Assembly (NCBI GenBank): GCA_035998445.1
Contig: DASYHQ010000007.1
Coordinates: 1-64,000, forward strand
DNA: 64,000 nt
Origin: Tepidisphaeraceae bacterium
GTDB lineage: Bacteria; Planctomycetota; Phycisphaerae; Tepidisphaerales; Tepidisphaeraceae
Direction: 5' to 3'
Made by a program: the position numbers and the translations under genes. The stretch's first letter is position 1, and each line of letters opens with the position of its first letter. The notes beneath the pieces were generated by a model. That model searched no databases. It was not told where the DNA came from and saw only the letters and a list, made by a program, of their open reading frames with translations. This document shows positions 2,601-27,439 of this stretch, one piece after another.

Positions 2601-3160
2601 TGGCGATTGAACCGATCGACACGACGGCGGCGGAGGGGATTGAGGATACCGACTGGCACTACGGCACGCTCGCGAGCGTCGCCGACTTCGTGCGGCAGCA
2701 GAACCTGTCGATCATCAGCCCGAACGGCGATGGGACGATAGACGCGACCCGCGTGCGCCGTGACGGGCTCGACAGCGACGCCTACTTCAACGTGTCGATG
2801 CGCGGCGGCGTCTACGTGGTGCCGATCACGGTCGATGACGTGGCGCTGCCGGACCTTCCCGACACGCACGAGACGAAACGCTACTTCAACTCGTTATCCG
2901 ATTGGGACGTGGCGGCTAGGCTCAACGATCATCGCATGGTGTTCGGCGGCGGCAACCCGGCGGATATCGACAAGATGATGGGCGTGCTACGCGAACGCGT
3001 GGGGGCGGAGCTGGCGTTGGTGAAGTCGGGTGCCCGCGTGCTGGTGGCCGACCGGGTGCCGGTGGTCGCGAGCACAGTGGGGGTGTTTCAGTTCCCCGAA
3101 ATCGATCGGCGTGGCGGGTGCCGTTCTCGCGGTGGCGAATTCAGCAGCGGAGGTTGGTGA
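2600..3160 (+). CDS. Phage structural protein of unknown function
   Basis: The product has 186 residues and starts at an ATG overlapping the stop of the hydrolase gene by one base (TAATG). No family is recognised. The middle has strand-rich sequence (GGVYVVPITVDDVALPDLPD) and the end is Gly/Arg rich. Its place just before the tail-completion and tube candidates suggests a head-tail connector or minor tail part. An upstream in-frame ATG at 2537 lies inside the previous gene and is less likely as start. Confidence 0.6.
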   Translation: MAIEPIDTTAAEGIEDTDWHYGTLASVADFVRQQNLSIISPNGDGTIDATRVRRDGLDSDAYFNVSMRGGVYVVPITVDDVALPDLPDTHETKRYFNSLSDWDVAARLNDHRMVFGGGNPADIDKMMGVLRERVGAELALVKSGARVLVADRVPVVASTVGVFQFPEIDRRGGCRSRGGEFSSGGW

Positions 3161-3702
3161 TGCCCCGCACGTACCGTAGCGAACTTGTACAGGCCATTTA
3201 CGCTGCCGTCGGCGATAGCGCGCCCCTCGTGGCGACGCTGGCCAGCGTGCTGCCTGGCGCGCAGGTCCGCGTGCTGAAGGACAATCGCACGTCGCGGATC
3301 ATCCGCCTCACGCTCGGCCCGCCCGGCGGGTTCCCCGTCATTCAAGTGCGCACGGGCAACAGCGACAGCGGCGACATCTTCCCGACGCCGGAGACGTATC
3401 AGGCCGAGGCGGATGTCGAACTGACTGATGACGTGCGCCGCCAGGCCGAGGTCAACGTCGAACTGCTCTACGACGCCAACGCGCAGTCGCCGATCGACGA
3501 CGCAATCCGCGACCAAATCGAGACGCACGCGATGGCCGCGGTCGCGGGCCTTGGCCCGAAGGTCATCGACGGCCTGGGCCGCATGACCTACCGTCGCACG
3601 CAACGAATCAAAGAGACGATGAACGGCGTCGCGGTCGAACTGACCCGCATCGTCATCACTGCCAACTTCATCATCGAAGGCAGCGCGACGCTGCCCGATT
3701 AA
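3160..3702 (+). CDS. Phage tail completion / tail terminator candidate
   Basis: The product has 180 residues. The ATG overlaps the preceding TGA (TGATG) and follows a GGAGG at 3149-3153. The N-terminus is a helix (SELVQAIYAAVGD) followed by strands, and the centre reads like a small alpha/beta protein with a long helix at IDDAIRDQIETHAMAAVAGL. Size and position, two genes before the probable tube protein, fit the tail terminator or completion proteins of siphophages. The role is inferred from synteny only. Confidence 0.55.
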   Translation: MPRTYRSELVQAIYAAVGDSAPLVATLASVLPGAQVRVLKDNRTSRIIRLTLGPPGGFPVIQVRTGNSDSGDIFPTPETYQAEADVELTDDVRRQAEVNVELLYDANAQSPIDDAIRDQIETHAMAAVAGLGPKVIDGLGRMTYRRTQRIKETMNGVAVELTRIVITANFIIEGSATLPD

Positions 3703-4133: not shown

Positions 4134-4577
4134 ATGGCACTTACCCCCATTCGCGCCACGACCGGCGAGGCCGACTTCACCTTGACCGAGGAGGGCGGCG
4201 GCGGCACGCCCGTGTCGTACGCCAACATCGTCCGCGGCGTCACATTCCGCCAGGAGGCGAGCGAGGAGAACGAGAACGTCTACGCGAACGAAGCATCGGG
4301 CGGCGATTTCTCGCTCGGTACGCCGATCACCCGCGCGACCGTCCGGTATCAGTTGAAGTACGGGGCGGCCGCCACTGCTCCGTTTTATCCGATCGAGGAC
4401 TTCCAGAACCGCGGGTTCGTGAAGACCTTCGCCGTCGGGTGTTCGATCAGCGGGACGATCACCTTTACCAGTAGTCAGATCAGCGACGATTCCGGCGTCT
4501 CGCGCCGTGAGGGTAACGAGGCCACCGCCCGCCTCAACGGCGCGCAGGTGTTCGCGTGGGACGAAGGCACGCCGTAA
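4134..4577 (+). CDS. Probable major tail tube protein
   Basis: The product has 147 residues, mostly short beta strands with Gly/Thr turns and an ordered core (ATVRYQLKYGAAATAPFYPI), preceded by a strong GAGGAG ribosome binding site at 4121-4126. A strong RBS fits a high-copy structural protein. It stands directly before the frameshifting tail assembly chaperone, where tube proteins normally lie in long-tailed phages. The assignment rests on synteny and composition; no tube signature was identified with certainty. Confidence 0.6.
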   Translation: MALTPIRATTGEADFTLTEEGGGGTPVSYANIVRGVTFRQEASEENENVYANEASGGDFSLGTPITRATVRYQLKYGAAATAPFYPIEDFQNRGFVKTFAVGCSISGTITFTSSQISDDSGVSRREGNEATARLNGAQVFAWDEGTP

Positions 4578-4638: not shown

Positions 4639-5190
4639 ATGTACGACTTCACGTCCGGCGCTTCGGCGCCGGTGCCGGTCCGCGTTGATGGCGCGCGGAC
4701 CTACCAGGTCCAACGGTTCCTGCTGCCCGAGTTCGAGGCGCGCGTCGCGTCGTCGCGCCAACGGCAGATCGACGAGTTCACCGAGGGCATGAGCAAGCAC
4801 GAGCGTGCTCAGTTCCTCGCGTTGACCCCGCCCGTTCCGGTGGACATCTACGCCGTGTGGAAGGAACTCGTCACGCCCGAGGGCATCCGTCACGTCATCC
4901 AGACGTGCATGGCCAAGTCGGGCGTTCCACAGGCGGACATCGACATCGCCCTGCGGAACGACCCGATGATCCTCCGCCGGCTGGCTGACGACCTGTCGTC
5001 GGCCGACGCCACGATCGCCGAACTGGAAGGCCAAGCCGAACGGGGATTTGAACCGGAGGCGGGGGACAGCGCCCCAAAACCGCCTTCCGGCGGGCCTACT
5101 ACCGCCGGCTCCACTCCCTCGCCCGAGACTGGGGCGCAGACCTCGACCGGTTCTACGCCGCCCAGTACGGCACAGATCCAAGCCGCCTGA
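4639..5190 (+). CDS. Tail assembly chaperone, short (gpG-like) product
   Basis: The zero-frame product has 183 residues. Residues 1-135 form an ordered, mostly helical domain (IDEFTEGMSKHERAQFLAL; VPVDIYAVWKELVTPEGIRH). The last 40 residues are a Pro/Ser/Thr-rich tail typical of the part bypassed by a frameshift. Such chaperones coat the tape measure protein during tail assembly. The gene lies between the tube and tape measure genes as expected. GGAG at 4627-4630 serves the ATG. A slippery heptamer within codons 145-147 leads into a second, better ordered C-terminal domain in the -1 frame. Confidence 0.75.
   Translation: MYDFTSGASAPVPVRVDGARTYQVQRFLLPEFEARVASSRQRQIDEFTEGMSKHERAQFLALTPPVPVDIYAVWKELVTPEGIRHVIQTCMAKSGVPQADIDIALRNDPMILRRLADDLSSADATIAELEGQAERGFEPEAGDSAPKPPSGGPTTAGSTPSPETGAQTSTGSTPPSTAQIQAA
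5073..5079 (+). other. -1 frameshift slippery heptamer C CCA AAA
   Basis: In the frame of the chaperone gene the codons here read GCC CCA AAA CCG, so the heptamer fits X XXY YYZ exactly. After a one-base slip the ribosome continues at 5079 in a frame that opens after a TGA at 5049-5051 and stays open to 5385-5387. The zero frame runs on to 5190, so the heptamer lies well inside the shared window. The same arrangement directs gpG/gpGT expression in lambda-like phages. Confidence 0.75.
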
Positions 5191-5387
5191 CCTTCCTTCA
5201 GTTCCTACGCATGGCCAGCGGTGCCGAACGGGTGCTGAGCCTGCGAGCGCTGTTGGCGACGGGAACCAAGCAACGGCTCGACAAGATGGACGATGAGGCG
5301 ACGGCTAAACGCGACGAGGCGATCGCCGCCATCGAACGGGCGTGCGGTGAGATCCCACCGGAAGACGAGGACGACGACGATGAATGA
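5079..5387 (+). CDS. Tail assembly chaperone, -1 frameshift extension (gpGT-like)
   Basis: This frame adds 102 residues to the first 147 residues of the chaperone, giving a 249-residue fusion. The extension is ordered (YYRRLHSLARDWGADLDRFY) and ends in a run of acidic residues. It lacks a start codon and ribosome binding site at its beginning. An internal ATG at 5211 would discard the first third, so frameshifting is the better explanation. The T part of gpGT proteins normally recruits tube protein. The last bases overlap the start of the next gene, keeping it coupled. Confidence 0.7.
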   Translation, partial: TAFRRAYYRRLHSLARDWGADLDRFYAAQYGTDPSRLTFLQFLRMASGAERVLSLRALLATGTKQRLDKMDDEATAKRDEAIAAIERACGEIPPEDEDDDDE

Positions 5388-5784
5388 GGATTTCGTCGAG
5401 AACATCATGGCGGACGTCAACGCGGCGGCGGAACGGGCAATCCGTCCCGCCGTCGCTGACGTTTATGAGGGCGTGCGCGAGGCCGTCTCGGTGCCGGTCG
5501 GATACGCGCAGGGACCGCGTGGTGGCGTGATGGTGGTAAGGAGTCTCCCCGGCGAGGCTCCAAGGAAGGAACGCGGGGTCTACCGGGATTCGTGGCAGCA
5601 AGAGGTGGCGGTCGACGGTGACCGCGTAGAGGGCACCGTGTTCACCGACGACATCCGGGGGCTCTGGTTCGCGGAAGGCACGAAGGTGGGCGGCGTGACG
5701 CGCATGGCCCCCCGTCCCCACGGCGAGCAGCAGTTCAATGAGGTCGCCCCGTCCCTCCCGGCCCGCGTGGCGGAGAACCTGTAA
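5380..5784 (+). CDS. HK97 gp10-like tail/neck protein candidate
   Basis: The product has 134 residues. An N-terminal helix (VNAAAERAIRPAVADVYEGV) is followed by GEAPRKERGVYRDSW, a strand hairpin and a GTKVGG loop. This order of elements is that of HK97 gp10-like connector proteins, which join the tail to the head. Assignment is moderate. Its place between the chaperone and the tape measure gene is unusual, because gp10-like genes normally precede the tube gene. The start overlaps the end of the frameshifted frame and the stop overlaps the tape measure start (TAATG). Confidence 0.55.
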   Translation: MNEDFVENIMADVNAAAERAIRPAVADVYEGVREAVSVPVGYAQGPRGGVMVVRSLPGEAPRKERGVYRDSWQQEVAVDGDRVEGTVFTDDIRGLWFAEGTKVGGVTRMAPRPHGEQQFNEVAPSLPARVAENL

Positions 5785-8700
5785 TGGCAGAACAGCAACA
5801 CGTCTACGAACTCAAGTTCGTCTCCGACTCCGCCGACGTCCGGTCGGACCTGGCGGAGCTGCGCGAGGATGCCGCCAAGGGCGTCAACGTGCCGCTGCGG
5901 ACCGGTTCCGAGGCGGGCGAGAACGGCGGCCGTCGACCGCCCCGCGATGGCCGTAACACGCCAGCCACGCCCGACGATGGCCCGCCACCGCGGCGGTCGG
6001 ACCCGCCCCGGCAGAACGCGCCCCAGCAGTTCAACGCCGACTTCGCGCAGCGGTTCGACCGTTCGCTGCGCGCCACGTTCAACACGTTCTCCGTGATGCT
6101 GGCGACCCTTGAGACGATCCAGCAGGGTACGGGTGGCGTCGACCTCAACACGTTGAAACAGCGGGTCGAGGTCGCCAAGGGCCGCGTCGCGGCACGGTTG
6201 GGCGGCGAGCCCATCACCCGTGCCAGCGTGGCCCGCGAGATCGTCGAACGCGTAGCCGAGGTGGTCGAACCCGTCCGGTCGCGCCGTACCCAGATGCCGG
6301 ACGTGCGCCGGGCGGTCGAGTATGCCCGCCAGAGCGATGACCCGGCCCTCCGACGTTTGGCGACCCAGTACGACGACCCGCGCGAGTTGGGCATCGCCAA
6401 TGCCGAGCGACGGAGGACTGCGACAGTTGAACCAACGGCAGTGCCGCGTCGGCGCCGTCGGCAGCCCGTGGTGGAGGCAGAGGCGTTGCCGGAAGACGTG
6501 CCCCCGGCCCCGTCCGCGCGCCCTGCGCGTCGCCGCCAGCGAGCTGCGATTGAACCGGACAGGGCCGACCGCCCACAGCGCGCCACCGAGGCGTTGCCCG
6601 AAGACGTGCCGCCTGCGCCACGCCCGGTGGCCGCACCGCCGCGCCGCGCAGAACGCGAGCCCGCCCGGCGCGATCCGGCCACCGGGCGATTCGTTGCCCG
6701 CCCGCAAAGGGCGCGTGACGCGCAGGGACGGTTCCTGCCGGTCGAACGGATGCTGGGCCCGGAGAATCGCCCACCCGAATGGAATCCGCCGTCCCCCCCG
6801 TGGGACGGCGACGCATGGCGACGGGAAACGGCCCAGCGCGCTGCACAGTTCGGCATGGACCCGGACACGCTGCGGGCCAGGGAGAGCATCGGCGGGCGGA
6901 TGACGCCCGAATTGGCGTCGCGGTACATCCGTCCTGTGGATCCCCGGCAGTCCGAATGGTTGCGCGGCCCGCAGCGGCCGCAGGAGCCGGCGGAACTGGC
7001 TGACCCGCGGGGGCTACCCGCCTTCACCGGTCGACGCCGGGAGTTCGGACCGCAGCCGCGACCCATCCCCGTGGCGGTGGATGCCGGGCAGGCACGCGCC
7101 GAGTTGTCGAAGGTCGAGGCCCAGGTAACCCGCGTCCAGAACGCGCGACCGACGGTGAGAGTGGGGGCAGACGGTGCGCCCACGCGACGGAGCGCAGGTC
7201 CGGACCTGGCGGGCAACCCGGCTGCGTTGTTCGATCGCCGCGACATCCGGCGCAACGCGCAGTTCTTTGATGCCACGATTGCCGATCTATCCCCGCGCCA
7301 GCAGCTAAAGCGGGTGCGAGAGCGGTTAGAGCAGGTGGGCCCGGGCGGGCAGCCGCCGGCGCCGAACGATCCACTGTTGCCAGAGTTCACGCGGTTGAAG
7401 CGGCGGGAGGATGCGCTGCAGGCGCAGCGGGGATTCGGGCGTTTCCTGACGCAGGAGAACTTGGGCAGGGTCGCCGCCGTTGGGGCGGGTGCTCAGATCG
7501 CCGAGACGCTTTTCGCGTCTAGCAACGTCCTGTTTGACACCGGCCGCGGCGCCGATCGGTTTAGCATTCAAGGCCAGTTGGCGGCCCGCCGGTCTGGCGA
7601 GCAGGTGCTGCGCGGCATTCCGCTGATCGGTGGGGCGCTGGCGGAAGGTCGCGGGTTCCTCGACCGTCTGACGGGGCAGGCGACCGAGCAGCAGATTCAG
7701 GATCGACTCGCTTCGGCGCAGGCGGGGGATGAGTTGACGGCCCTGCGTCGTTCGCGTGGCGAGGCCGCCGAGCGTCGGGCCACGTTCGACCTCGGTGACA
7801 CGGCACGCCGACGGCTCGAGATCGAACAACGACGCCGGGCCGTGGTGAACACGGCTGGCGACCAACTGTCGGAAGTCTCGATCCAACTGAATGAGATCAC
7901 GCCACCGGGCCGGCAGGTGCTGCTGTCGCGCGAGCAGGCACAGAAGCGCGACGACCTGCTCGCGCGGCGGAGCGAACTTCAGCGACAGGCCGCCGAAGGC
8001 AATGACCAAGCCGCGTTTGAGATCCGACAGCTGGCCATCGAGCGGGGCGACCGTAACTTCGCTCTCGACGCATCGTCGCGCGGCCAATCCACGTACAGCG
8101 TGCAACGCGAACTGCTGGAACGCAGGCGGCCCCGTGGCGATCAAGACGCGCCGCTCGAGATGCAGGCGTTGGACCGTACCGAACGGCGATCCAACAATGC
8201 CATCGCCCGACGGTTCGACCAGGGCACCGACGCATCGGCCTTGCAACGGACCGGCTTCACGCGCCAGGCTGCAGAGGCTCGAGTTAATCAGCAGTTCGAT
8301 GAACAGGTGCGCGAGGCGGCGAAGAACCGCACGGCGCCGGGCGGGGAGGGTGCGCTGGACGCAATCCGGAAGGCCCGCGAGGAGGCCATCAAGGTGGCAG
8401 TGGGGGAGGTGGATAGGGCGGCGATGCAATTCTACGGGCGGGTCGACGCCTCCCGACTGACCCGCCGGGGCTTTGGTGCCGCCGCGGCGCTGTTGGACGT
8501 CAGTACGCAGTTCCAAGCCACGACCCGCGGCATGGACCGCAACAGCGACGCCTATCGGCAGGCCGTGGCCGCGCGCAACGAAGGATTCTCCCTCGTCAAC
8601 GAGCAGCAGCGCCGGCAGAACACGTTGGGCCGCGCCGACTACGAGGCGGGGGCGCTCCGGCTCAACCGCAACCCGCTGGCGGCCCAGCTACGTGAGAACC

Positions 8701-9254
8701 AGGGGCAGATCGACGCCGAGGTGGGTAATCGTCCGTGGTACTCGCCCGACGCCATGCGTGCCCGCATGTTCGGCGAGCAACGACGGCGGATGATCCTGCA
8801 GCAGGACGCCGACCAAACCCAATCGCTGGGGATTAACCTGACGGGGCGAGAACGCCAGCAGGCGGCGATACGCAACCGCGACCCGCTCGGGGCGCAGGCC
8901 GCGGGGATCGTGGCGTCGACGCGGGAAGAAGAATTGGGGTTGAGGCGCGCGGGAAGGGGGGCGGAGGCGGAGCGGGTGAGGGAGCTGGGCATCGGCCAAC
9001 TCGACCAGACGCGCGACGACTACCTGCGCGGCTTCCGTGGCGAACAACGTGACCTGCGTCTGTTCGACACCAGCAACGCCCACGACGTGGAAGATCCGGC
9101 CAGCGTGCTGCGGACGATCGCCGACGCGAAGAACGAACTCGGCACGGCAGCCAAGCCTGCGGGCGATGCGGTCACCGTCCAACTTTCGGACGAGGCGATT
9201 TCCTCGCTGGTCACCGGCATCGGCAATTACCTCACCAACCTTGTGAAGAACTAA
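5784..9254 (+). CDS. Phage tail tape measure protein
   Basis: At 1156 residues this is the longest late gene and follows the tail chaperone, as tape measure genes do. Residues 45-430 are a low-complexity Pro/Arg/Ala region containing two copies of EALPEDVPPAP. After residue about 480 it is dominated by charged helices with many Gln and Arg (RRLEIEQRRRAVVNTAGDQL). A hydrophobic patch lies near GRVAAVGAGAQIAETLFA. The length sets tail length and the helices are expected to fill the tube lumen. No lysozyme or peptidase domain is visible. Confidence 0.85.
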   Translation: MAEQQHVYELKFVSDSADVRSDLAELREDAAKGVNVPLRTGSEAGENGGRRPPRDGRNTPATPDDGPPPRRSDPPRQNAPQQFNADFAQRFDRSLRATFNTFSVMLATLETIQQGTGGVDLNTLKQRVEVAKGRVAARLGGEPITRASVAREIVERVAEVVEPVRSRRTQMPDVRRAVEYARQSDDPALRRLATQYDDPRELGIANAERRRTATVEPTAVPRRRRRQPVVEAEALPEDVPPAPSARPARRRQRAAIEPDRADRPQRATEALPEDVPPAPRPVAAPPRRAEREPARRDPATGRFVARPQRARDAQGRFLPVERMLGPENRPPEWNPPSPPWDGDAWRRETAQRAAQFGMDPDTLRARESIGGRMTPELASRYIRPVDPRQSEWLRGPQRPQEPAELADPRGLPAFTGRRREFGPQPRPIPVAVDAGQARAELSKVEAQVTRVQNARPTVRVGADGAPTRRSAGPDLAGNPAALFDRRDIRRNAQFFDATIADLSPRQQLKRVRERLEQVGPGGQPPAPNDPLLPEFTRLKRREDALQAQRGFGRFLTQENLGRVAAVGAGAQIAETLFASSNVLFDTGRGADRFSIQGQLAARRSGEQVLRGIPLIGGALAEGRGFLDRLTGQATEQQIQDRLASAQAGDELTALRRSRGEAAERRATFDLGDTARRRLEIEQRRRAVVNTAGDQLSEVSIQLNEITPPGRQVLLSREQAQKRDDLLARRSELQRQAAEGNDQAAFEIRQLAIERGDRNFALDASSRGQSTYSVQRELLERRRPRGDQDAPLEMQALDRTERRSNNAIARRFDQGTDASALQRTGFTRQAAEARVNQQFDEQVREAAKNRTAPGGEGALDAIRKAREEAIKVAVGEVDRAAMQFYGRVDASRLTRRGFGAAAALLDVSTQFQATTRGMDRNSDAYRQAVAARNEGFSLVNEQQRRQNTLGRADYEAGALRLNRNPLAAQLRENQGQIDAEVGNRPWYSPDAMRARMFGEQRRRMILQQDADQTQSLGINLTGRERQQAAIRNRDPLGAQAAGIVASTREEELGLRRAGRGAEAERVRELGIGQLDQTRDDYLRGFRGEQRDLRLFDTSNAHDVEDPASVLRTIADAKNELGTAAKPAGDAVTVQLSDEAISSLVTGIGNYLTNLVKN

Positions 9255-9257
9255 ACC

Positions 9258-10118
9258 ATGCCCACACTGAAGATAGACACGGTCCGAGGGTCCAGTCTGG
9301 AAGCGGTCGACGGCGTGGGCACGCGCCTGATTCGCACGGCCATCGTTGACGACATCGACCTTGCCAGCGGCAACGATCCCGAAGCCCTGATCAAGGTGCT
9401 CTCTGTGACCGGGATGCCGCAGTTGAAGGACGCGTTGCCCGGCCAGCCATCGATGTTCCTGCGCCGAACGATCGTGCGGCCGTCACTGACGCGATGGCGA
9501 CGGGCATATGTGGACCTCGAGTACAGCAACGAGTTCGGGCTGATCCCCACGGCCTACATCGTCCGCGACGACGCCTTTCTTCAGCAGGTGGAAACGAACC
9601 TCATCCCCGGCACGTTCGTGCCGATCCGGGTCAACTGGCAGAACCCATCCGAGGCCACCGAAAAGGTACCGGCCGACAACATCACCTTCAGCTTCGGCAT
9701 TCCCATTCGTGCCATTTCGATTTCCGGCCTCGCCTACGGTTCCCCCAACACGTACCAGGGGAGCGTCGGCATGGTGAACGCGGGGACGTGGGCGGGCAAG
9801 GCGGCGGGGCACTGGCGCCTGGACCGGTACGCCAGCGAAATCAACAAGCAAGAGGGCACCTATACGTACAACGCGATGGCCGTCTCGCGCGCGTACGGGG
9901 ACTGGTCCGAGTGGGGCGTGCTCAGGAATCAACAGACCGGCCGTTACATCCCCATCGCATCTGCAGACCGGACGGCTGCCCTTGCGCTCGCCTACAGCTA
10001 CGGCATCATCTACCCGACCGCGACCCCCGACACGAGCAACAAGGGATTCGTCCGCGTCGGCCCGTACCAGACGACGAACTTCGAGACGATCTTCGGGTTC
10101 ACCGACCCCTACGCATAG
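9258..10118 (+). CDS. Distal tail protein candidate
   Basis: The product has 286 residues and starts 3 bases after the tape measure stop. The N-terminus is strand-rich and the middle resembles a beta-sandwich (AYVDLEYSNEFGLIPTAYIV). It takes the position of a distal tail protein, directly after the tape measure gene. No family signature is recognised, so a structural role in the baseplate region is inferred from position. Confidence 0.6.
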   Translation: MPTLKIDTVRGSSLEAVDGVGTRLIRTAIVDDIDLASGNDPEALIKVLSVTGMPQLKDALPGQPSMFLRRTIVRPSLTRWRRAYVDLEYSNEFGLIPTAYIVRDDAFLQQVETNLIPGTFVPIRVNWQNPSEATEKVPADNITFSFGIPIRAISISGLAYGSPNTYQGSVGMVNAGTWAGKAAGHWRLDRYASEINKQEGTYTYNAMAVSRAYGDWSEWGVLRNQQTGRYIPIASADRTAALALAYSYGIIYPTATPDTSNKGFVRVGPYQTTNFETIFGFTDPYA

Positions 10119-10120
10119 CC

Positions 10121-10645
10121 ATGTACAAACAAGCCAACATCGCCAAACGCGGCCCCGGGCTCGCGTCGACCCACATCACGAACGAACTGGCCGAACATGC
10201 CAACGGCAACGGGCCGCCGTTCCACGTCGGACAGGTGGCGGGGGACGATCCCTTTCCGCGGCGCGACATCGTGCTGGTGAAACTCACGTCTGCGGCAACC
10301 GGCGTGGGCCGCTACAACGGTCGCATGAGTGACATGGTCATCAACCTTGAGGCCACCGGCGCCCTTGCCGAAGCGAACCTCGGCACGTTCGCCACCGCCG
10401 ACGATACGATCGTCTGGCTCATGAGCGACGCGGCGCAGTCGTCCAACAGCGTGACGACGTTCAGCCCCGCGCCGTACGTGCTCGGCTGGCTCGTCGACAC
10501 GAACGATGCGGGGAAGAAGATCGTGATTGTTCCGAGGGGGGGCGGGGGCAGCCTGCCTTCCGGCACGGGCCGTTACAAGGTAGTTCAAGTCATCGACACT
10601 CTTAGCCCGGGCACGCTGGGCATCGACTACCTGAGGTTCCCGTAA
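10121..10645 (+). CDS. Phage tail-region protein of unknown function
   Basis: The product has 174 residues and begins 2 bases after the preceding stop. It contains strand motifs (DIVLVKLTSAATGVGRYNGR; IVWLMSDAA) ending in YLRFP. I recognise no family. It could be a small baseplate or hub protein. Its TAA overlaps the next ATG (TAATG), so the two are translationally coupled. Confidence 0.6.
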   Translation: MYKQANIAKRGPGLASTHITNELAEHANGNGPPFHVGQVAGDDPFPRRDIVLVKLTSAATGVGRYNGRMSDMVINLEATGALAEANLGTFATADDTIVWLMSDAAQSSNSVTTFSPAPYVLGWLVDTNDAGKKIVIVPRGGGGSLPSGTGRYKVVQVIDTLSPGTLGIDYLRFP

Positions 10646-12057
10646 TGCCAATCCCCGACTGGAATCACGTTTGGACTGAGGATGACGCGCATCTCGCGGT
10701 ACAGGATCAGCAGGTTGCGCAGATGTTCGCCGACGCCGCCGCCGAACGGATGCGGTACAGCGGTGGCAACAATAGCCCATACGAGCGCGCTCTTAGCCTC
10801 ACCCCGTGGGCACCAGTTGACCCGCTCTACCCGGCGTCCGGCGCTGACACCATGGCATGGTGGAAGGCGCTACAGATTCGCATTAACAACATGAAGGCGT
10901 ATTGGGTCATTGCCCACGACGACGAAGGGGAGGAAATCGACTACACCGGGCGCACCGGCATCGACACATGGGATAGCCAGATGGTCGACCCGTTTAACTG
11001 GGTTGGACCCCACGACGTCGGCCAGCCTCGTACCAGTTCGCTCCCCGGTGGCACGAGTAGACCGTTTCCGCCGACGCCAGGGGCGAGCAGTCCGATAGGC
11101 TGGCGGCGAGTCTATGCCCGCACGATTCAATCGCTTTCCGACACCGGCTCGGAAGGGTGGGTCGCACGATTTGAGGCGACCGGTTCAACACTGCTGGCGG
11201 AACGACCACTATCGGGGAAATACTACACCCGCATCGGCGGCGTGTGGGTTGAAACACCAGAGGCGATCGATCCGGACCACATCGAAGGATTCGGCCTCAT
11301 CCAGACGGGCGACTACTGGGGCGCGCACATCCTTAACGATCTGCGTACCGCTCTAAATGTGATGGTGTGGACGTTCGGCGTAGTCGATTGGACGCTGCCG
11401 GTATCGCCGCCGTCGCGTAGCGGTCGCAGAGGATCGCCGCCGCTTGCCAGCGGGCCGACAGGCGACTTTGTCGACAGTGACTTTACGGCAGTGAGGTCGA
11501 GCGCTACGAGTCTCTTCAATAGTACGGCAGACTTCCCGAGCGACCGACCGATCAAAGTTGGGCGACTCACCTGCCTGCCTAAGACGTCATTCAACTCCGC
11601 GAGGGTAGGCGCAAGCACGATATCCACGTTCAAGTATCCGTTCATGAAGGCGTTGAAGCCGCCACACATCGCCGGGCATGGTTCATTTGAGGCGCAGATC
11701 TACTCCTCCAACTCTCGGATAGGAGAGATCGATTCAGTCGGTAACATCAGTAACACAGTTTACGATAACTACGGCATGTATGACGCGGAAGTGCTGCCTG
11801 GATTCTGGTTTGCTTTGGGCGACCATATCGATGAGGGCGACATAGTATCTAAGCCGTCAACGCTGAACTACAACGGATACCTAGGGCCCGTGTACGGCGA
11901 CACGTCGATGACGCAGCCCGCGTGGCCGTCACCGCCGTTCCCGACACCCAACACGCTCAATGCTAACAATTACGACTACAGCTACGGTATCCAAGCTGGC
12001 GACCCGTTAGCGGTGATAAAGTTCAATGTGGCCGGCGGCTTCCTCTATCAAGAGTAA
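10645..12057 (+). CDS. Phage tail-tip or receptor-binding protein candidate
   Basis: The product has 470 residues and is the last rightward late gene, ending 2 bases before the convergent leftward prepilin-like gene. It is rich in Trp, Tyr, Asn and Ser with short strands, in the style of phage adhesins. The second half is visibly more AT-rich than the genes before it, which often marks adhesin modules acquired by exchange. No domain is recognised with confidence, and the receptor-binding role is inferred from position and composition. Confidence 0.6.
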   Translation: MPIPDWNHVWTEDDAHLAVQDQQVAQMFADAAAERMRYSGGNNSPYERALSLTPWAPVDPLYPASGADTMAWWKALQIRINNMKAYWVIAHDDEGEEIDYTGRTGIDTWDSQMVDPFNWVGPHDVGQPRTSSLPGGTSRPFPPTPGASSPIGWRRVYARTIQSLSDTGSEGWVARFEATGSTLLAERPLSGKYYTRIGGVWVETPEAIDPDHIEGFGLIQTGDYWGAHILNDLRTALNVMVWTFGVVDWTLPVSPPSRSGRRGSPPLASGPTGDFVDSDFTAVRSSATSLFNSTADFPSDRPIKVGRLTCLPKTSFNSARVGASTISTFKYPFMKALKPPHIAGHGSFEAQIYSSNSRIGEIDSVGNISNTVYDNYGMYDAEVLPGFWFALGDHIDEGDIVSKPSTLNYNGYLGPVYGDTSMTQPAWPSPPFPTPNTLNANNYDYSYGIQAGDPLAVIKFNVAGGFLYQE

Positions 12058-12059
12058 TG

Positions 12060-13100
12060 CTACTCGCTGCGCGTCAGCGTGCCGTTGTAGCGGTTGACGA
12101 GCAGCAGCAGGCCGTTGTCGGATAGCCAGTTCTCCTCAGTCAGTTCATCGGCGGCGGGCGTGGCAGCGTATGGGCCGATCGGATAGCGCGTGTCTTCCTC
12201 TGTGCCGGGTGCGTTTAAGAACGGCTCACGCTCGTACATCATGACGGCCGTGTGACCTTGCAGCCGTGGGCTCTGGACGCCGGGGAACACGGGATCGGGA
12301 TTGCGAGGAATGCGTTGTCCGGTAGACAAGCCGATCAGGTCGCCAAGGGGCGTACCGGCCTGGATCGCGTAGCTGTCCGTCGATAGCTGGCCGTTGGTGT
12401 TGAACAGGACGATTCCGGTTCTCAGGAACCGATCGTTGTTCGTCACCACGCCCTGCGGATCGTTGACCAGCTGAAGTCCGATGCCCGGCTGAAGGTACTC
12501 AATATCCGCGTCAAACAGTTCAAGCGTGAGGGGCGGGGCTTCCTCCCAAAACGTGTTCTGGACCGCCGGCGGGTTCGGCGGGGCGTTTCCTGTCGTGCTG
12601 CTGGGAATATCCACTCGCGCGATGTAGCGGCGCGTGACGAACTTGCGATCGACGGGGCGTGCCGCACCTGTCGCGGAGTCAGGCGCATTGCCCACGCTCG
12701 CCTCATCAGCATCATTGCCCATCGCGCCGCCCGCGTTGCCCGTGTCCCATCCTGCGTAGTAGACCATTTGCCCGGCGGCATAACTGACGGTCTGACCGGC
12801 CGCGGCAGTCGTCGTCCACTGGTGGTAGTCTGATTCGCCACTTGTCGCGTCACCTGAGACGATCGCCATTGCCGTGCGTTCGTTGTCGCGGTCGAAGTAG
12901 AACGCAACGCCCATCGTCCGTTGCTGGTTAATCGCCTCGCTGCGGGCGCGACCGAGCAAGGCGCCGACGATGTTCTGCCCGGCATCCACGCTGCGGTTGC
13001 CCGTGATGAAGTTGAACGCCGGCAGGGCCAGCGCGATCAGAATCACGATCAGGCTGATAACGACAAGCAACTCGGTGAGGGTGAAGCCGCGCCTACGCAT
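12060..13100 (-). CDS. Prepilin-like (GspH/FimT-type) protein inside the prophage
   Basis: The product has 346 residues and begins RRRGFTLTELLVVISLIV, a type III signal with cleavage between Gly5 and Phe6, Glu at +5 and a hydrophobic helix. The globular part has strand-rich sequence and ends NRYNGTLTRSE. Such proteins are processed by the host prepilin peptidase and enter type IV pilus or type II secretion pseudopili. The gene overlaps the upstream 2-TM gene by 8 bases. Whether it is phage cargo or a host insertion is unclear. Phage use as receptor interference is speculation. Confidence 0.75.
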   Translation of the reverse strand: MRRRGFTLTELLVVISLIVILIALALPAFNFITGNRSVDAGQNIVGALLGRARSEAINQQRTMGVAFYFDRDNERTAMAIVSGDATSGESDYHQWTTTAAAGQTVSYAAGQMVYYAGWDTGNAGGAMGNDADEASVGNAPDSATGAARPVDRKFVTRRYIARVDIPSSTTGNAPPNPPAVQNTFWEEAPPLTLELFDADIEYLQPGIGLQLVNDPQGVVTNNDRFLRTGIVLFNTNGQLSTDSYAIQAGTPLGDLIGLSTGQRIPRNPDPVFPGVQSPRLQGHTAVMMYEREPFLNAPGTEEDTRYPIGPYAATPAADELTEENWLSDNGLLLLVNRYNGTLTRSE

Positions 13101-13518: not shown

Positions 13519-13914
13519 TTAAAGGGCAGCGTTCACTCTTGCTTCGTACGCCAGCAACACCTTCTTCAGCTTTGCGCCGCCGAGCGTGCCCGAGTACTCA
13601 CAGGTAACCAGTTTCTCATTGGCGATCGGCAGGAACCACCGCGGGATCGCCGAGCAGGGCCGGGGCAATCCCGTTGAGCACTGCGGCTCAGTGGACCTGT
13701 TCGGCATCGGAACGCTATCGGCCTCGCGCGGGCCAGCCGTGGCAGAGCACGCGATGACGATCGAGGTTCCGTCCGCCTCAGGATCGGGATCGACGACGAT
13801 GATCGGCCGGCGCTTGTCGGTGTCGCCGTCCAAGGGCGGACAATCGTCCCACCAGACAATTAGCCCATGCCTGGGTTTGATGGCGATTGGTTTGGGTGGT
13901 GTGTTCCCCCGCAA
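13519..13914 (-). CDS. MazF/PemK-like toxin candidate
   Basis: The product has 131 residues. The GLIVWWDDCPPLDG strand-loop followed by KRRPIIVVDPD and, later, SAIPRWFLPIANEK and a C-terminal LKKVLLAYEARV helix match the order of elements in the MazF/PemK fold, an mRNA interferase in type II toxin-antitoxin pairs. The start appears to be TTG 10 bases after the stop of the 70-residue partner gene. The catalytic residues were not verified. In a prophage such a pair would act in stability or superinfection defence (inference). Confidence 0.55.
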   Translation of the reverse strand: MRGNTPPKPIAIKPRHGLIVWWDDCPPLDGDTDKRRPIIVVDPDPEADGTSIVIACSATAGPREADSVPMPNRSTEPQCSTGLPRPCSAIPRWFLPIANEKLVTCEYSGTLGGAKLKKVLLAYEARVNAAL

Positions 13915-27364: not shown

Positions 27365-27439
27365 TGGGCCCGAATGGATTCGAACCATCGACCTCGTCCT
27401 TATCAGGGACGCGCTCTAAACCAACTGAGCTACGAGCCC
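27365..27439 (-). tRNA. tRNA-Ile (GAT)
   Basis: All arms pair: acceptor GGGCTCG/CGGGCCC, D arm GCTC/GAGC, anticodon stem CGTCC/GGACG with loop CTGATAA, and T arm GATGG/CCATT closed by a wobble pair. The anticodon GAT decodes AUC/AUU. No CCA is encoded. Its 3' end points at the phage-like region, so it is a plausible attachment site. Confidence 0.95.

Follow-up and report, generated by a model that had tools for sequence, protein, structure and literature searches.

A candidate programmed -1 frameshifting signal in the presumed tail assembly chaperone gene of a prophage-like region

A gene in a prophage-like part of the window (the whole 64,000-nucleotide stretch analysed here, which forms the start of a 119-kb contig) very probably encodes a lambda gpG/gpGT-type tail assembly chaperone, made via a programmed -1 frameshift. 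As far as can be read from the sequence, the -1 frameshifting signal of this presumed chaperone gene is complete but ordinary, and the system is of a known kind, the one by which tailed phages usually produce the two proteins that help to assemble their tails. The original prediction of such a frameshift in a gpG/gpGT-type gene is thus supported, in that every sequence feature tested agrees with it.

The zero-frame ORF (4639..5190, + strand), recognized from the ORF listing, the coding score and a structure model, encodes a G-like product of 183 aa, the presumed tail assembly chaperone. Direct reading revealed the slippery heptamer C CCA AAA at 5073..5079 (+), where the zero-frame codons are GCC CCA AAA; CCCAAAA thus lies in the correct phase within the overlap of two frames. 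The -1 frame is opened by a TGA at 5049-5051, remains open over 5052-5384 and stops at the TGA at 5385-5387. Its extension beyond the heptamer (5079..5387, +), recognized from the open frame and its codon usage, consists of 102 residues followed by the stop codon and would form a T-like domain. With 147 zero-frame codons up to the end of the heptamer, the predicted fusion comprises 249 residues. The heptamer, its phase, the opening TGA, the 102 extra residues and the length of the fusion had all been given in the original prediction, and reading and recounting returned the same positions and numbers. An open -1 frame of this size (111 codons) is expected by chance in about 10% of cases in this GC-rich DNA and is weak evidence alone. 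In-frame heptamers of the form X XXY YYZ (Y = A or T) were absent from approximately 12,000 codons of other window genes; one of these controls, of about 210 codons, had been scored in the wrong frame, which left the result unchanged. The motif C_CC.A_AA.A falls in V_VV.A_AA.R, one of the most efficient motif classes measured in E. coli (PMC4066793). Genes for tRNA-Pro(TGG) and tRNA-Lys(TTT) are encoded in the host genome.

Codon usage placed the change of frame at the same site. The scoring relied on codon frequencies derived from 24 further genes in the window and did not use the heptamer. Frame 0 was favoured up to approximately 5070 and frame -1 beyond it. In a likelihood model with one switch, the change from 0 to -1 was best placed after the heptamer's first base (5073), and the range within 2 log units was only 5067-5082. 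In the overlap (36 codons), the -1 frame was ahead of frame 0 by 14 log units; among 3,701 control gene segments of equal size, none favoured its own -1 frame as strongly. Past the overlap, the -1 frame was the only coding-like one. The GC contents at the second and third codon positions 3' of the heptamer were 0.86 and 0.72 in frame 0 vs. 0.58 and 0.86 in frame -1, the latter being nearer to the surrounding genes. Since both codon usage and GC by codon position favour the -1 frame, the zero-frame tail, rich in Pro, Ser and Thr, is most plausibly an out-of-frame shadow of the -1 coding sequence.

Two candidate stimulators, neither of which was part of the original prediction, flank the heptamer. 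Folding yielded a hairpin at 5087..5108 (+) with seven G-C pairs (5087-5093 with 5102-5108), separated from the heptamer by a 7-nt spacer. Its energy was -15.6 kcal/mol (z -2.47; 3 of 200 shuffles were as good), and equally stable hairpins starting 4-10 nt in were found in 0.5% of gene windows. An internal Shine-Dalgarno sequence, GGAGG, was read directly at 5055..5059 (+), 13 nt 5' of the heptamer; GGAGG occurs in the equivalent zone at 0.5% of gene positions. The 3' end of the host 16S rRNA (...GGATCACCTCCTT) carries the anti-Shine-Dalgarno CCTCC, which is complementary to GGAGG. Stimulators of -1 frameshifting are common but not obligatory. Both candidates satisfy the rules used in searches for bacterial -1 stimulators, i.e., a hairpin starting 4-10 nt after the motif and a Shine-Dalgarno sequence 6-17 nt before it (PMC4066793). 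When a longer stretch was folded, bases around GGAGG paired with the spacer, an arrangement in competition with the hairpin; a ribosome sitting on the heptamer should open this pairing.

An AlphaFold model of the zero-frame product, built from the single sequence, consisted of a beta hairpin followed by helices, with moderate confidence (pLDDT mostly 70-85 over residues 11-110). Residues beyond 137 were modelled as disordered, with pLDDT <50 for most of 138-183, in agreement with the disordered tail described earlier. Family searches in Pfam and PHROG gave no significant match for either the zero-frame or the -1 part; the latter had marginal matches to two families of unknown function, PHROG 9435 and 5466 (E 0.003-0.008). 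The fold search with the zero-frame model likewise returned no significant match. In the PDB, the best hits (Z 4.0) were unrelated proteins, and YqbN, which we take to be a chaperone-like phage protein, scored Z 2.2, too low for use.

Relatives were sought with the zero-frame, -1 and fusion products, with the tube, gp10-like and tape measure candidates, and with the products of 9258-10115, 10645-12054 and 360-2597. Searches made variously in viral contigs, in genome contigs, in phage records and across the phylum or class (several hundred genomes) yielded nothing usable. One weak match to the tube candidate (G735) was rejected, as its locus appears, by reading, to encode recO- and ppdK-like host proteins; another (G027) was weak, with 26% identity over 65 residues inside a 461-aa frame. 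Weak matches to the fusion were not counted, since most of them lay within long ORFs of other proteins. The proteins are orphans; none of these collections yielded a close relative.

The genes between approximately 1 and 27 kb look like a prophage truncated at the beginning of the contig. The tRNA-Ile(GAT) gene at 27365-27439 (-), a possible attachment site that adjoins a host phosphoglucomutase-like gene (assigned by reading), probably marks the right border of this prophage. Pseudopilins and the overall gene content were read as those of a planctomycete host. A separate array of 25 tRNA genes covering most amino acids was observed within about 3 kb at G000:C52:100151-102989 (L062). Upstream of the frameshift gene lie a presumed tail terminator-like gene (3118..3702, +; 194 aa), assigned by position only, and a presumed tail tube gene (4134..4577, +; 147 aa), which had no significant family match and whose structure model was too poor for a fold search. 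Downstream, a small gene (5380..5784, +) overlaps the end of the -1 frame and has weak similarity to HK97 gp10-like/Neck1 proteins (Pfam PF04883, E 0.15; PHROG 5, E 0.13; neither significant). Next comes the largest gene of the module (5784..9254, +; 1156 aa), the presumed tape measure gene, which had no family match. The location between tube and tape measure genes, as originally proposed, fits in its order, with both flanking genes assigned by position and size only; immediate adjacency to the tape measure does not hold, as gene 5380-5784 intervenes. Other parts of the prophage carry a PemK/MazF-like ORF (13519-13914, -; E 0.00099, below the Pfam cut-off) and a type IV prepilin-like ORF (12060-13100, -; Pfam N_methyl above the cut-off).

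Terminase and portal genes above the cut-off were found only on contig C18 of the same genome, which carries two further prophages, L009 and L011. Both have the layout tube, G, -1 T frame and tape measure, and the junction carries A AAA AAG. In L009, the G part matched the PHROG 344 tail assembly chaperone (E 3.7e-12), while its match to Pfam Phage_TAC_13 was below the cut-off; the T parts of both matched PF06223 Phage_tail_T above the cut-off as well as PHROG 337. These matches indicate that phages of the same host carry a G/T system. The G-like gene of L011 (approximately 7957-8290) also has a mid-gene frame break besides its A AAA AAG site, which reflects either a decaying prophage or an indel. 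Prepilin-like ORFs with an N_methyl match were present in L011 (13962-14855, -) and L009 (4477-5757, +) as well, i.e., strikingly, in all three prophages seen in the genome. They are opposed to the tail operon at its distal end, and in the window and L011 they directly adjoin the last tail gene.

The gene is laid out like gpG/gpGT, and its gene order, its seemingly disposable C-terminal tail and the frameshift signal point to a tail chaperone. It is unlikely that the frameshift is real and the protein is another tail or head component. Such a role would be compatible with the lack of a family or fold assignment for either product, but the location ahead of the module's largest gene, the overlap architecture and the same architecture in the two better conserved prophages argue against it. 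The fold matches to the zero-frame model, none of them significant, also include two phage tail assembly chaperones and YqbN.

A one-base deletion, whether an artefact of sequencing or assembly or a genuine mutation of a decaying prophage, could have split a single gene of about 249 codons. This is the main rival to a programmed shift, and we regard it as quite unlikely. The frame switch does fall in two short runs, CCCCAAAA; the assembly consists of 64 contigs; and the G gene of L011 has a frame break away from its own slippery site, a hint that indels do arise in this genome. Runs of four bases are rarely miscounted, however, and the other genes used as controls, more than 35 kb in total, were open throughout. 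An indel would need neither a phased heptamer nor a canonically spaced hairpin and Shine-Dalgarno sequence, nor would it have to strike the one tail-module gene known for -1 shifts.

It is very improbable that two separate proteins are made, the downstream part being translated from its own start and coupled to the upstream stop at 5188-5190. An ATG is available in the -1 frame at 5211, 20 bases past the zero-frame stop, but no Shine-Dalgarno sequence precedes it, and initiation there would leave the 44 codons of 5079-5210 untranslated despite their strong -1 coding signal. No ATG, GTG or TTG occurs in the -1 frame before 5211, the sole earlier near-start being CTG at 5187; these 44 strongly coding-like codons would therefore be reachable only via a shift. 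Transcriptional slippage was rejected, as the longest run here is four bases and the runs on which slippage is described comprise 9 A or T (PMC5009743).

For the preferred reading, programmed -1 frameshifting, we infer that shifting occurs at a rate at which most ribosomes would stay in the zero frame and produce the 183-residue G-like protein, with the shadow as its last 36 residues. A ribosome whose P and A sites are occupied by CCA and AAA, respectively, would be held by the hairpin ahead and by the pairing of GGAGG with the anti-Shine-Dalgarno behind, provided that both stimulators act as predicted. The tRNAs Pro-UGG and Lys-UUU would then move back by one base and re-pair with CCC and AAA, and the shifted ribosomes would complete the 249-residue GT-like fusion. 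If the chaperone role applies, the analogy with lambda would have G coating the tape measure and GT recruiting the tube protein through its T domain.

Read in this way, the conserved frameshift of tail chaperones would extend to an orphan prophage lineage, with C CCA AAA and both kinds of bacterial stimulators. For proteins left unnamed by the sequence searches made here, a role is suggested by the frameshift signature together with the order of the genes. A bolder and rather unlikely proposal is that the gene represents a new orphan G/GT family in which the cassette of Shine-Dalgarno sequence, C CCA AAA and hairpin drives shifting far above the level of lambda. If true, it would bring the GT:G ratio nearer to parity and imply a different stoichiometry of assembly.

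In lambda, the two products are made at a molar ratio of 30:1, with G binding to the tape measure and T to the tube protein (PMC5009743). In contrast to lambda gpG/gpGT, the locus in the window has a different heptamer, C CCA AAA, a predicted hairpin and Shine-Dalgarno stimulators, and an extra gene before the tape measure, and its proteins have no sequence similarity to the lambda pair detectable in family searches. The pairs of L009 and L011 share with it the gene order, the -1 overlap design and the host; however, they use A AAA AAG and match known families, whereas the pair in the window uses C CCA AAA and is without a significant match. With the bacterial dnaX -1 cassette, the locus in the window has in common the upstream Shine-Dalgarno sequence, the heptamer and the downstream hairpin, while the gene and the heptamer sequence differ, and the shifted product is the shorter one in E. 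coli dnaX vs. the longer one predicted here.
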